Below are positions 438-59,928 of a stretch of DNA of 64,000 nt, piece by piece; positions within the stretch are counted from its first letter, which is position 1, and each line of letters begins with the position of its first letter. This stretch comes from Ideonella alba. GTDB lineage: Bacteria > Pseudomonadota > Gammaproteobacteria > Burkholderiales > Burkholderiaceae_C. Under the pieces are notes generated by a model, which was not told the origin of the DNA, did no database searches, and worked only from the letters and a program-made list of their open reading frames with translations. Where the stretch lies: positions 186,001 through 250,000 of the forward strand of contig NZ_JAGQDF010000004.1 of NCBI RefSeq assembly GCF_018069875.1, in the 5' to 3' direction. Made by a program: the position numbers and the translations under genes.

Positions 438-1748
438 TCAGCTCGCCTTGAAATTGGCCTTCTTCAGCAGCGACTCGTACTGATGACTCATCACGTACGA
501 CTGCACCTGGGCCCAGAAGTCCATCGTGACGACCACGATGATCAGCAGGCTCGTGCCACCGAAGTAGAACGGAACGCTGTACTTGAGCTGCAGGAATTCC
601 GGCAGCAGGCAGACCAGCGTGATGTACACGGCACCGGCCAGCGTCAGGCGGGCCAGGATCTTGTCGATGTGGCGCGCAGTCTGCTCGCCCGGCCGGATGC
701 CCGGGATGAACGCACCGCTCTTCTTCAGGTTGTCGGCGGTCTCGCGGCTGTTGAACACCAGCGCCGTGTAGAAGAAGCAGAAGAACACGATCATCGCGGC
801 GTACAGCATCACGTAGATCGGCTGACCCGGCTGCAGCGTGCCCGAGATGTCCTTCAGCCAGCGCATGTCGTCGCCGGTGGCGAACCAGCCGACCACCGTG
901 GCGGGCAGCAGGATGATCGACGAGGCGAAGATCGGCGGGATCACGCCCGACATGTTCAGCTTCAGCGGCAGGTGCGAGGACTGGCCGCCATACACCTTGT
1001 TGCCGACCTGGCGCTTGGCGTAGTTGACCAGGATCTTGCGCTGACCCCGCTCGACGAACACCACCACATAGGTCACGATGCCGACCAGGGCGATCACGAA
1101 CAGCGCCACGATGATGCTCATCGCGCCGGTGCGCACCAGCTCGAACAGGCCGCCGATGGCGTTGGGCAGACCGGCCGCGATGCCCGAGAAGATCAGGATC
1201 GAGATGCCGTTGCCCAGACCGCGCTCGGTGATCTGCTCACCCAGCCACATCAGGAACATCGTGCCAGCTACCAGGCTGACCACCGCGGTCATGCGGAAGC
1301 CGAAGCCCGGGTTCAGCACCAGACCGGCCGAGCCTTCCAGCGCCAAGGCGATGCCCAGCGACTGAAAGATCGCCAGGCCCAGCGTGCCGTAGCGGGTGTA
1401 CTGGGTGATCTTGCGACGGCCGGACTCGCCTTCCTTCTTCAGGGCCTCGAGGCTGGGCACCACGTAGGTCATCAGCTGCATGATGATCGACGCCGAGATG
1501 TACGGCGTGATCCCCAGCGCGAAGACCGCGAAGCGCGACATCGCGCCACCCGAGAACATGTTGAACAGGTTCAGGATGCCGCCCTGCTGACCCTCGAAGA
1601 GGGCCTGCAGCTGCTGCGGGTTGATGCCCGGCACGGGGATATGCGCCCCGATGCGGTACACCACCAGCGCCAGCAAGAGGAAGACCAGCCGGCGATTGAG
1701 GTCGCCGAACTTGCCTGTCTTGGCCAGCTGAGTCGGAGAGGTTGCCAC
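438..1748 (-). CDS. secY: Preprotein translocase subunit SecY
   Basis: This is the 436-residue channel subunit of the Sec translocon in the inner membrane. It shows about ten hydrophobic spans, the plug region near [17 protein letters not shown], and the cytoplasmic loops with [16 protein letters not shown] that contact SecA and the ribosome. It lies 29 bp downstream of rplO at the end of the spc operon, its normal place. Its partner SecE is encoded in this window beside nusG. Confidence 0.98.
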
Positions 1749-55724: not shown

Positions 55725-57203
55725 ATGCTGGTGCTGGACCATGACCGGGCAGGCGGCTACTGGGGCGCGGTGTACGTGTTCACCGCGATCAAGGGCCTGC
55801 AGGTGGTGATCGACGGCCCGGTGGGCTGCGAGAACCTGCCGGTCACCAGCGTGCTGCACTACACCGACGCGCTGCCACCGCACGAGCTGCCGATCGTCGT
55901 CACCGGCCTGGCCGAGGAACAGCTGGGCCGCGAAGGCACCGAAGGCGCGATGCGCCGCGCCCACCGCGCCCTGGACCCCGACCTGCCGGCGGTGGTGGTG
56001 ACCGGCTCGATCGCCGAGATGATCGGCGGCGGCGTCACCCCCGAGGGCACCGGCCTGCTGCGCTTCCTGCCGCGCACGATCGACGAAGACCAGTGGCAGT
56101 GCGCCAACCGTGCGATGAGCTGGCTGTGGACGCAGTACGGCACGAAGCGCATCCCCGCGGCCCGGCCCGCGGCCGAACGCCCGGCCGGCGCGCGCCCCAA
56201 GGTCAACCTGATCGGCCCGAGCTACGGTGTCTTCAACGGCCCGAGTGATCTGGCCGAGATCCGCCGCCTGGTCGAAGGCATCGGCGCCGAGGTGAACCTC
56301 AGCTTCCCGCTGGGCAGCCACCTGGAGGACGTGCCGCGCCTGGCCGAGGCCGACGCCAACGTCTGCCTGTACCGCGAGTTCGGCGCCGCGCTGTGCGAAC
56401 AACTGGAGCGGCCCTGGCTGCATGCGCCGATCGGCGTGCACAGCACCACCCGCTTCCTGCGCACCCTGGGCGAGATGCTGGGCCTGGACCCCGAGCCCTT
56501 CATCGAGCAGGAAAAGCACACCACGCTCAAGCCGGTGTGGGACCTGTGGCGCTCGGTGACGCAGGACTTCTTCGCCACCGCCAGCTTCGCGGTGGTGGCC
56601 GGCGCCACCTACACCCGCGGCCTGCAGCGCTACCTGGGCGAGGAGCTGGGCCTGCCCTGCCAGTTCGCGGTGCCACGCGTGCCCGGCGCCAAGACCGACA
56701 ACGCCGAGGTGCGCCGCCTCACCCACAGCCGCACGCCGCTGGTGATGTTCGGCTCCTTCAACGAGCGCATGTACCTGGCCGAGCTGGCCGGCGGCCATGG
56801 CCCGCGGCCCAGTTACATCCCGGCGTCGTTCCCGGGCGCCATCATCCGCCGCGCCACCGGCACGCCCTTCATGGGCTATGCCGGCGCCACCTATGTGCTG
56901 CAGGAGGTCTGCAACGCCCTCTTCGACGCGCTGTTCCATGTGTTGCCGCTGGCCTCGGCGCTGGATGCCGTCGAGCCCACGCCGGCCCGCCTGGCGCCCG
57001 AGCGCCCGCAGGCCTGGGACGACGAGGCGCAGCGCCTGCTCGATGAGCTGGTGCGTGCGCAGCCGGTGCTGGTGCAGATCTCGGCCGCCAAGCGCCTGCG
57101 CGACCGCGCCGAGCACGAGGCGCAGCAGGCCGGCGAGGACCGTGTCACCGCCGAGCGCATGGCGCGCCTGCGCGACACCCTGACCACGGGCGTGCCGGCA
57201 TGA
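55725..57203 (+). CDS. bchZ: Chlorophyllide a reductase subunit Z
   Basis: The 492-residue NifK-like partner of BchY. It starts [20 protein letters not shown] and carries the conserved cysteine in [19 protein letters not shown]. The helical C-terminus is rich in Glu and Arg. It is followed by a 117-bp gap before pufB in which no PpsR box is seen, so puf may be read from bch promoters as a superoperon, or from a promoter I cannot recognise. Confidence 0.96.
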
Positions 57204-57320
57204 CGCCGATGACGCCCGCTTCCGACGTTCCGGCTGGCAGCCCTGCCACCGGGCGCCCTTGCCGCGCGGGATGGAGCCGCGGTATCGGCCGCAAGGCCAT
57301 TGAGAAAAGGAACCCCCACT

Positions 57321-57470
57321 ATGGCTGATGACCGTAAGGGCTCCCTGTCCGGACTGACCGAGCAGGAAGCACGCGAGTTTCACGGCATGTTTGTGACCAG
57401 CTTCATCGCGTTCACTGCGATCGCGATCGTCGCCCACATCCTGGTGTGGAACTGGCGTCCCTGGCTCTGA
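57321..57470 (+). CDS. pufB: Light-harvesting 1 beta polypeptide
   Basis: The 49-residue LH1 beta protein has an acidic N-terminus ([14 protein letters not shown]), one membrane span with the bacteriochlorophyll-ligand His39, and the WNWRPWL ending. His21 is also conserved in beta polypeptides. It starts at ATG with AAAAGGAA upstream and is the first gene of the puf operon. Confidence 0.96.
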
Positions 57471-57506
57471 GCCTGGCCCGCCTTCAACGCTCCTGAGGAG
57501 CAAGAG

Positions 57507-57728
57507 ATGACCGCTTCCACCCTGAAGCCCGACGTTGGCCACACCCGGGGCGCCGAGTCCTCGCGGCTGGTGTTCTGTGTGTGCTTTGCGATGTTCCTGG
57601 TGATCGCCGTGATCGCCCAGCTGCTGTTCATTCCCTGGCGCAGCTGGTTGACCGGTGCCGAGGACCATCGCTCGCTGATCGGCGGCGTCAGGTCGGCGGT
57701 CTACACCCTGTTGTCCAACATCCCTTGA
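57507..57728 (+). CDS. Unrecognised 73-residue single-span protein in the puf operon
   Basis: This gene lies between pufB and pufA, which are normally adjacent. It has a clear GAGGAG ribosome-binding site and starts at ATG. A polar 20-residue N-terminus is followed by one membrane span (about residues 21-43, FCVCFAMFLVIAVIAQLLF), then PWRSWLTGAEDH and a short amphipathic end (RSLIGGVRSAVYTLLSNIP). There is no His positioned as an LH ligand in the span. Size and topology recall PufX or PufW, which shape the core complex in other bacteria, but I see no sequence similarity that I can claim. It may be a core-complex subunit. Confidence 0.8.
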   Translation: MTASTLKPDVGHTRGAESSRLVFCVCFAMFLVIAVIAQLLFIPWRSWLTGAEDHRSLIGGVRSAVYTLLSNIP

Positions 57729-58099: not shown

Positions 58100-58924
58100 A
58101 TGGCCATGCTCAGCTTCGAGCGCAAATACCGCGTCCGCGGCGGAACCCTGATCGGAGGCGACCTGTTCGACTTCTGGGTCGGTCCGTTCTACGTGGGCTT
58201 CTTCGGCGTCACCACCGCCTTCTTCGCCACCCTGGGCACCGCGCTGATCCTGTGGGGCGCGGCGCTGGGGCCGACCTGGAACCTGTGGCAGATCAGCATC
58301 GCGCCGCCGGACCTGAGCTGGGGCCTGCGCCTGGCGCCACTGGCCGAAGGCGGGCTGTGGCAGCTGATCACGATCTGTGCGCTGGGCGCCTTCGTGTCCT
58401 GGGCCCTGCGGGAGGTCGAGATCTGCCGCAAGCTGGGCATGGGGCTGCATGTGCCGGTGGCCTTCAGCTTCGCGATCTTCGCCTACTTCACGCTGGTGGT
58501 GATCCGACCGATGCTGCTGGGCGCCTGGGGCCATGGCTTCCCCTACGGGATCATGAGCCACCTGGACTGGGTGTCCAACACCGGCTACCAGTACCTGCAC
58601 TTCCACTACAACCCGGCGCACATGCTGGGCGTGAGCTTCTTCTTCGCCACCTGCTTCGCGCTGGCGCTGCACGGCTCGCTGATCCTGTCGGCCACCAACC
58701 CCGGCAAGGGCGAAGTGGTCAAGGCGCCCGAGCACGAGAACACCTTCTTCCGCGACACCATCGGCTACTCGATCGGCTCGCTGGGCATCCACCGCCTGGG
58801 CCTGTTCCTGGCGCTGTCGGCGGCCTTCTGGAGCGCGATCTGCATCGTGCTCAGCGGTCCCTTCTGGACCCGCGGCTGGCCCGAATGGTGGAACTGGTGG
58901 CTGAGCCTGCCCGTCTGGCGCTGA
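58100..58924 (+). CDS. pufL: Photosynthetic reaction centre L subunit
   Basis: The 274-residue L subunit has five membrane spans and begins [17 protein letters not shown]. The pigment and iron ligands are visible in the regions [30 protein letters not shown] (special pair) and [19 protein letters not shown] (non-haem iron). A second ATG two codons later is possible. It is followed by pufM after 41 bp. Confidence 0.97.
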
Positions 58925-58965: not shown

Positions 58966-59928
58966 ATGGCCGAGTACCAGAACATCTTCACCCGCGTCCA
59001 GGTCCATTCGCCCGCCTACCCCGGCGTGGCGCTGGCCGAGGACAAGCGCGCCGGCACCCCGGTGCATGTGCACCTGCTCGGACGCTTCGGCGACGCGCAG
59101 ATCGGCCCGATCTACCTGGGCTGGCTCGGCGTGGTCGCGCTGATCCTGGGCTTCGCGGCCTTCGAGATCATCGGCCTGAACATGCTGGCCTCGGTCAACT
59201 GGAACCCGATCGAGTTCGTCCGGCAGCTGCCCTGGCTGGCACTGGAGCCGCCGGCGGCCGAGTACGGTCTGCGCATCCCGCCGCTCGAGAAGGGCGGCTG
59301 GTGGCTGATGGCGGGCTTCTGCCTGACCATGGCCATCCTGCTGTGGTGGGTGCGCATGTACCGCCGGGCCCGTGCGCTGGGTCTGGGCACGCATGTGGCG
59401 TGGGCCTTCGCCGCGGCGATCTGGCTGTACCTGGTGCTGGGCTTCATCCGCCCGGTGATGCTGGGCCAATGGAGCGAGGCGGTGCCCTTCGGCATCTTCC
59501 CGCACCTGGACTGGACGGCGGCCTTCTCGCTGCGCTACGGCAACCTGTTCTACAACCCCTTCCACATGCTCAGCATCGCCTTCCTCTACGGCTCGGCGCT
59601 GCTGTTCGCGATGCACGGGGCGACGATCCTGGCCGTCACCCGCTTCGGCGGCGAGCGCGAGATCGAGCAGATCCTGGACCGCGGCACCGCCAGCGAGCGC
59701 GCGGCGCTGTTCTGGCGCTGGACCATGGGCTTCAACGCGACGATGGAATCCATCCACCGCTGGGCCTGGTGGTTCGCGGTGCTGTGCCCGCTGTGCGGCG
59801 GCATCGGCATCCTGCTGACCGGCACCGTGGTCGACAACTGGTACCTGTGGGCGGTCCAGCACGGCGTGGCGCCCAGCTACCCGGCGGCCTACCCGGTCGG
59901 ACCGGACCCGGCCCTCGCCCCGCACTGA
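58966..59928 (+). CDS. pufM: Photosynthetic reaction centre M subunit
   Basis: The 320-residue M subunit pairs with PufL. It begins [13 protein letters not shown]; the special-pair histidine region is [21 protein letters not shown], and the iron ligands lie in [14 protein letters not shown] and [10 protein letters not shown]. It has a GGAG ribosome-binding site. Confidence 0.97.

Follow-up and report, generated by a model that had tools for sequence, protein, structure and literature searches.

A third small gene lies between the LH1 beta gene pufB and the LH1 alpha gene pufA in the puf operon of Ideonella alba, and its product is an LH1-beta paralogue without the bacteriochlorophyll-ligating histidine. 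We studied this gene in a window of 64,000 nucleotides (the whole stretch of DNA analyzed) together with its homologues in other genomes. Sequence comparisons make descent of the extra protein from the LH1 beta family very probable, a kinship absent from the initial annotation and added here. The gene itself is already known, matching ORF2 in Rubrivivax gelatinosus and ORF74 in Roseateles depolymerans. For its function, we give about an even chance to a role as a beta surrogate, either an assembly-stage partner of LH1 alpha or a low-copy RC-LH1 subunit at the ring end.

The gene between pufB and pufA

The initial annotation described a 73-residue open reading frame with a good ribosome-binding site of its own. 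The frame is intact and located exactly as claimed (Table 1), and its duplex energy with the anti-Shine-Dalgarno sequence is −8.4, against −5.6 for pufB and −6.4 for pufA. Next after pufM is pufC, assigned by position only. The stop of the putative bchZ lies 117 nt from pufB, so a gene of PufQ size does not fit there. Pfam LHC matches at E ≤ 0.001 in the same genome (5.5 Mb, 36 contigs) are confined to pufA and pufB, so that LH2 (puc) genes were not found in it. A GGCC-GCAA-GGCC hairpin occupies positions 57287–57298, 22 nt before the pufB start, and also occurs in L009, L011, L068, L077, and L078; because its stem varies on both sides in relatives (GGTC..GACC, GACC..GGTC), the element is a possible structured 5′ leader. 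A crude hairpin pattern was present at 48/135 loci and in 114/4110 random windows of equal length.

Table 1. Features of the puf operon in the Ideonella alba window
Feature	Position	Strand	Basis
492-aa ORF, taken as bchZ from position alone	55725..57203	+	ORF list; bchZ-pufQ-pufB order in annotated records
pufB, LH1 beta, short form, 49 aa, ends WRPWL, ligand His retained	57321..57470	+	Pfam LHC 6.9e-11, NCBIfam pufB 8.9e-25
Shine-Dalgarno GAGGAG of extra gene, 6 nt before ATG	57495..57500	+	sequence; anti-SD duplex energy −8.4
Extra gene, 73-aa His-less LH1-beta paralogue (ORF2/ORF74 family), ATG start	57507..57728	+	PDB antenna beta matches, homologues
Transmembrane stretch, residues 20–43, limits assigned in this analysis	57564..57635	+	model helix 16–48, beta alignment
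Gln38 codon CAG, aligned with beta ligand His	57618..57620	+	alignments
WRSW boundary and conserved tail, residues 44–73 (model helix 56–71)	57636..57725	+	column conservation, model
pufA, LH1 alpha, 60 aa	57744..57926	+	Pfam LHC 1.5e-17, NCBIfam pufA 2.2e-21
pufL	58100..58924	+	tblastn, 81% identity to annotated pufL of Novosphingobium and Thiodictyon plasmids
pufM, by position after pufL	58966..59928	+	ORF list

The protein has one span with no histidine in it, as first described, and Gln38 stands at the position of the beta ligand. An AlphaFold2 model (mean pLDDT 66.5, pTM 0.36) places this single span in the longer of two helices, residues 16–48, and adds a C-terminal helix at residues 56–71. 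Regional pLDDT is 91 and 84 within residues 21–40, and across the tail it takes values of 54 to 70, which gives the C-terminal helix no more than moderate support. The amphipathic C-terminal segment proposed earlier is borne out mildly (mean moment 0.31 versus 0.09 for the span). A Foldseek search with the model gave no PDB match at E ≤ 10.

Kinship with LH1 beta and loss of the ligand

Searches of known structures lead from the extra protein to antenna subunits. With the single sequence, phmmer found 18 PDB sequences at E ≤ 10, the best at 7.9e-7. All of them are antenna chains, of which 14 are named beta and 4 are unspecified, and a single comparison with the neighboring PufB gave 1e-6. A profile of 93 homologues found 42 PDB sequences at E ≤ 1, comprising two GPCRs at about 0.7 and 40 antenna chains at 8e-17 to 0.033. 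Of these chains 30 are named beta and 10 are unspecified, with none labeled as alpha only; the five alignments displayed are to betas with the histidine. In profile–profile comparison with hhalign, the extra family matched long-form beta at 99.6% (1.5e-24, 75 columns including the tail) and a mixed beta set at 99.4% (5.5e-22), against 5.6% for the LH1-alpha control. Curated families name neither the extra protein nor the PufQ-like proteins described below, with nothing above cut-off in Pfam or NCBIfam. For the extra protein, Pfam LHC (PF00556) gave no match at E ≤ 10, no PufX model appeared among the Pfam and NCBIfam matches, and NCBIfam pufB (NF040862) reached E 0.044 with 13.7 bits, under its cut-off of 61; one homologue reached 2e-5 with the same model, still below cut-off.

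Long-form LH1 beta (7XXF of Rhodopila globiformis; 8Z81) shares with the extra protein the span register, the alanine at −4, the WRxW end, and the tail. The extra protein differs from it in lacking the ligand histidine and the SLSGLT start, and it has mostly lost the histidine before the span (kept in 12/12 long betas versus 8/93 extras). We considered a recent duplication within Burkholderiales pufB; the extras are not nested in beta in a tree of 65 columns and 123 rows that includes 31 of the 99 extra-bearing loci. Support was 94/95 for beta versus the rest and 90/97 for the extras as one clade with L176 outside, although few columns, long branches, and an unsettled bootstrap make this tree no arbiter between an old split and fast change.

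The ligand is lost throughout the family, while the residues around it are kept. Among 103 distinct homologues the ligand position is occupied by Q (82), T (8), S (6), E (2), A (2), G (1), M (1), and L (1), the M and L rows looking shifted by one, and by H in none; the histidine is present in 84/86 short betas, the remaining two being unscored by the script. Residues kept in the 93 aligned extras include the alanine at −4 (93), W44 (92), R45 (90), W47 (91), and G50 (93), followed in the tail by V65 (93), Y66 (90), and S70 (92); P49, A51, E52, V61, and M69 are also near-invariant (86–93 of 93 each). This conserved tail is 26 residues long. Short betas end 1–3 residues after their last tryptophan (84/86, two not scored); the tail is borne by beta itself in long-beta operons and by the extra protein in extra-bearing operons. 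At a 100-degree pitch, the conserved face of the extras' span lies at −52 to −78 degrees relative to the ligand (p 0.02–0.09), and the same measure gives −55 for short and −54 for long betas, a weak agreement in direction. Pitches of 97 and 103 degrees spread the direction over −23 to −95 degrees, with p up to 0.21 (at 103), and the pull toward the ligand face itself is non-significant in two of three ranges.

Conservation and relatives at the pufQ place

The initial annotation suggested looking for conservation at the same position in related photosynthesis clusters, and homologues do occupy this place in Rubrivivax, Roseateles, and one Limnohabitans MAG. LHC genes are carried by 12/100 relatives, ten of which have the extra gene while the other two (G056, G088) have a long pufB without it. 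In an order-wide sample, 53/399 genomes match an extra-family query at E ≤ 0.01, a count that includes betas and some chance hits. Searches of named genomes by tblastn gave 298 stretches encoding a relative, with long betas not separated; the best 80 of these include Rubrivivax gelatinosus, R. benzoatilyticus, Roseateles depolymerans, the Limnohabitans MAG, Leptothrix discophora, Sphaerotilus mobilis, Piscinibacter, Aquincola, and Ideonella. Viral contigs scanned for close relatives, and plasmids searched by tblastn, yielded no homologue.

The extra gene is under purifying selection. Its median dN/dS is 0.41, compared with 0.19 for pufB and 0.27 for pufA (2139 dependent pairs, dS 0.15–1.5), and dN/dS is below 1 in 99.9% of these non-independent pairs. 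The distance from its end to the pufA start is 10–26 nt in 97/99 operons; in the other two the start or pufA could not be set, pufA being sought only within about 60 nt. From this spacing and the median dN/dS, the gene is more than a chance reading frame. Median Shine-Dalgarno energies across loci are −8.5 for pufB, −7.9 for the extra gene, and −7.3 for pufA, against −3.2 at random places; the pufB and extra starts were chosen by Shine-Dalgarno strength, which favors the medians of these two.

Several individual loci are unusual. In L179, L180, and L182 (G268, G298, G134) a different LH1-alpha type (MWRYWRIVDPRKAII...) adjoins a member of the same extra-gene family, an arrangement that would suit a partial exchange of the operon. 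A Piscinibacter aquaticus pufB (L133, about 2799–2963) is without the usual WRPW end, maybe through a frameshift or assembly error. Extra-gene homologues also occur in MAGs labeled Bordetella parapertussis (L100, L137, L142), a label that looks wrong; in L100, pufB and pufA adjoin the homologue.

In other purple bacteria, the profile of the extra family also detects short ORFs that precede pufB. This is where annotated Rhodobacterales carry PufQ, between bchZ and pufB, and where Thiodictyon has an annotated hypothetical protein. Eleven aligned rows of these PufQ-like proteins have arginine (10) or histidine (one, G480) at the ligand place and an invariant proline three residues after it. Their profile matches the extras at 98.7% (3e-16), long beta at 98.5%, and annotated PufQ at 90.7%, with 0.3% for the LH1-alpha control, whereas the annotated PufQ profile matches long beta at 1.3% and the extras at 28%. 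Against the PDB at E ≤ 10, the PufQ-like profile found antenna chains in 22/25 cases (the other three were unrelated, at E ≥ 0.0092), and annotated PufQ found no chain. Pfam PufQ (PF05398) is touched by one of six PufQ-like proteins (E 0.052) and has no match at the extra gene; in the Ideonella genome it touches two places elsewhere, both below cut-off. When 21 whole genomes were searched with the PufQ-like profile at E ≤ 0.01, all 33 places found were at the puf operon. In 13 genomes with the extra gene this profile matched nothing beyond the puf locus, with only 150 of 159–189 candidates scored in three of them (G000, the Ideonella genome, G014, and G026).

A census of 137 distinct puf loci separates the two kinds of gene. 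We found 99 loci with a short beta and the extra gene (L176 by a weak, divergent match), 12 with a PufQ-like gene and a long beta (L192 at only 21 bits), 5 with a PufQ-like gene and a short beta, 6 with PufQ and a short beta (five annotated, one by profile), 10 with a long beta alone, and 5 with a short beta alone. The extra gene and PufQ or a PufQ-like gene share none of the 137 loci (99 with the former, 23 with the latter), and at least 600 nt upstream of pufB was covered in 92 of the 99. Most of these loci came from searches for the extra gene and related sequences or for pufL on plasmids. The counts are therefore not frequencies, and both lineage and this mode of collection confound the exclusion. 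A strict rule that a short beta needs the extra gene was rejected on the short-beta loci with a PufQ-like gene (5), with PufQ (6), or with neither (5). Three genomes of the window's own order (L173–L175) have a PufQ-like gene and are without the extra one, and the Rubrivivax and Roseateles loci have no PufQ-like ORF upstream of pufB (ORF1 of the literature). Beta-like ORFs upstream of pufB lie in L173 at 1112–1378, L174 at 1046–1309, and L175 at 1096–1359 (reverse-strand numbering), as well as in L227 at 760–984 and L226 at 726–1085; the one in L227 is annotated as hypothetical and the others are unannotated. They may widen the PufQ family.

Candidate roles and the ORF2/ORF74 record

Published accounts of the gene are brief. 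A passage on the Rubrivivax gelatinosus puf operon, citing Nagashima 1994, mentions ORF2 upstream of pufA as of unknown function, and section 8 of the same paper compares ORF2 with PufA and PufA2 only and rejects it as the source of pufA2 (PMC12817894). In Roseateles, the ORF74 locus tag falls between those of pufB and pufA, and the three genes are reported, citing Suyama 2002, to be co-transcribed in the major 1-kb puf transcript and to change most in starvation (PMC10037100). ORF2 and ORF74 are homologous genes of about 73–79 codons at the same pufB–pufA place, with no difference seen from the Ideonella gene; that our L165 and L152, the R. gelatinosus and R. depolymerans loci, hold these very genes is deduced from place and size. 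In the titles and abstracts searched, a set with few subscription journals, neither ORF2/ORF74 nor PufQ is described as a paralogue of beta, and a review passage mentions neither PufQ nor Rubrivivax (PMC10214105).

The initial annotation proposed an unnamed RC-LH1 subunit or assembly factor. That class remains sensible for a conserved single-span puf-operon protein with co-located homologues, and the gene itself was already on record as ORF2/ORF74. The initial annotation also held that the gene upsets the 1:1 translation of beta and alpha; it may do so, and in Roseateles the three genes are reported to share one major transcript. Known accessory proteins resemble it in part. Protein-W (PufW), an RC-LH1 accessory protein and thus alike in proposed role, is encoded outside the puf operon. 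Its supposedly similar topology does not hold, since PufW has three transmembrane helices where the extra protein has one span; PufX does have one such helix (both in PMC7806223) and belongs to the puf operon, with its gene after pufM. PufQ resembles the extra protein in size, single span, conserved C-terminus, and operon, and differs in its place upstream of pufB and in the low direct profile match. LH1 gamma and gamma-like chains are likewise small accessory LH1 proteins.

As a beta surrogate, the protein would insert like a beta helix, with its N-terminus inside and, by homology, its tail in the periplasm. Its gene stands directly before that of LH1 alpha and, as reported for Roseateles, shares the same major message. 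The span might then offer alpha a beta-type packing face, so holding a nascent or terminal alpha without the pigment of beta, while the conserved tail could dock on a fixed partner, probably the reaction center or the LH1 ring end; copy number would presumably be low. Counting against a beta surrogate are the curated families without a score above cut-off, the Foldseek search without a match, the dN/dS above that of pufB and pufA, and the sensitivity of the face test to range and pitch. The relatives at the pufQ place also count against it, favoring a factor over a subunit.

Those relatives raise the main rival possibility, less likely in our judgment, that the extra protein stands in for PufQ in Burkholderiales. 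It would then be a factor for pigment supply or for the heme/bacteriochlorophyll branch point, relocated from upstream of pufB to its place before pufA and not belonging to the ring. The mostly histidine-less beta-like ORFs upstream of pufB elsewhere, including the three genomes of the same order, would fit such a move, as would the profile match between the two families, their separation in the census, and the confinement of PufQ-like matches to the puf locus. PufQ is moreover described as having one span and a conserved C-terminus (PMC5725709). Set against this are the weak direct link to annotated PufQ, to which the PufQ-like profile itself is only suggestively tied, the lone marginal Pfam match, and the closer match of the extra family to long beta than to PufQ-like proteins. 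The exclusion loses force through its confounding, and neither gene accompanies the beta in ten long-beta and five short-beta loci.

Other readings fare less well. A stoichiometric gamma-like subunit, one per alpha–beta pair on the outside of the LH1 ring, is improbable: the common transcript reported in Roseateles, a Shine-Dalgarno strength similar to those of pufB and pufA, and the occurrence of the tail on beta itself in long-beta operons would suit it, but none of the profile's PDB matches looks like a true member of the extra family instead of a beta, the five alignments shown being to histidine-bearing betas. The gamma-like chain of Rhodopila, moreover, is described as 22 residues long and of opposite orientation, with its gene far from pufLMC (PMC9640540). 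Both the predominance of glutamine at the ligand position and the invariant alanine at −4 could be taken to mean that the protein is a true pigment-binding beta variant, with Gln (or Thr, Ser, or Glu) ligating bacteriochlorophyll. Glutamine can ligate chlorophyll in plant antennas. We nevertheless hold this very improbable, given alanine or glycine at the site in 3/103 homologues, threonine or serine in 14/103, and the rarity of the second, pre-span histidine. That the gene is a duplicate in decay, or serves only to space translation ahead of pufA, has nothing but its position in favor, and the dN/dS values and near-invariant tail residues make it hardly credible.

A broader reading, which we put forward tentatively and at less than even confidence, is that LH1 beta, the extra protein, and PufQ form one family, in which a ligand-less antenna subunit may have turned into an assembly or pigment-supply factor. 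That factor would be PufQ upstream of pufB in many purple bacteria and, on the same tentative footing, would lie between pufB and pufA in Burkholderiales. ORF74 is among the three most strongly induced photosynthesis loci reported in Roseateles. Homologues occur widely among Rubrivivax, Roseateles, Limnohabitans, and related bacteria, and the passage on ORF2 leaves the ORF without an assigned function since its 1994 description (PMC12817894). Reading it as a pigment-less beta would link ORF2/ORF74 to the old question of the nature and origin of PufQ.
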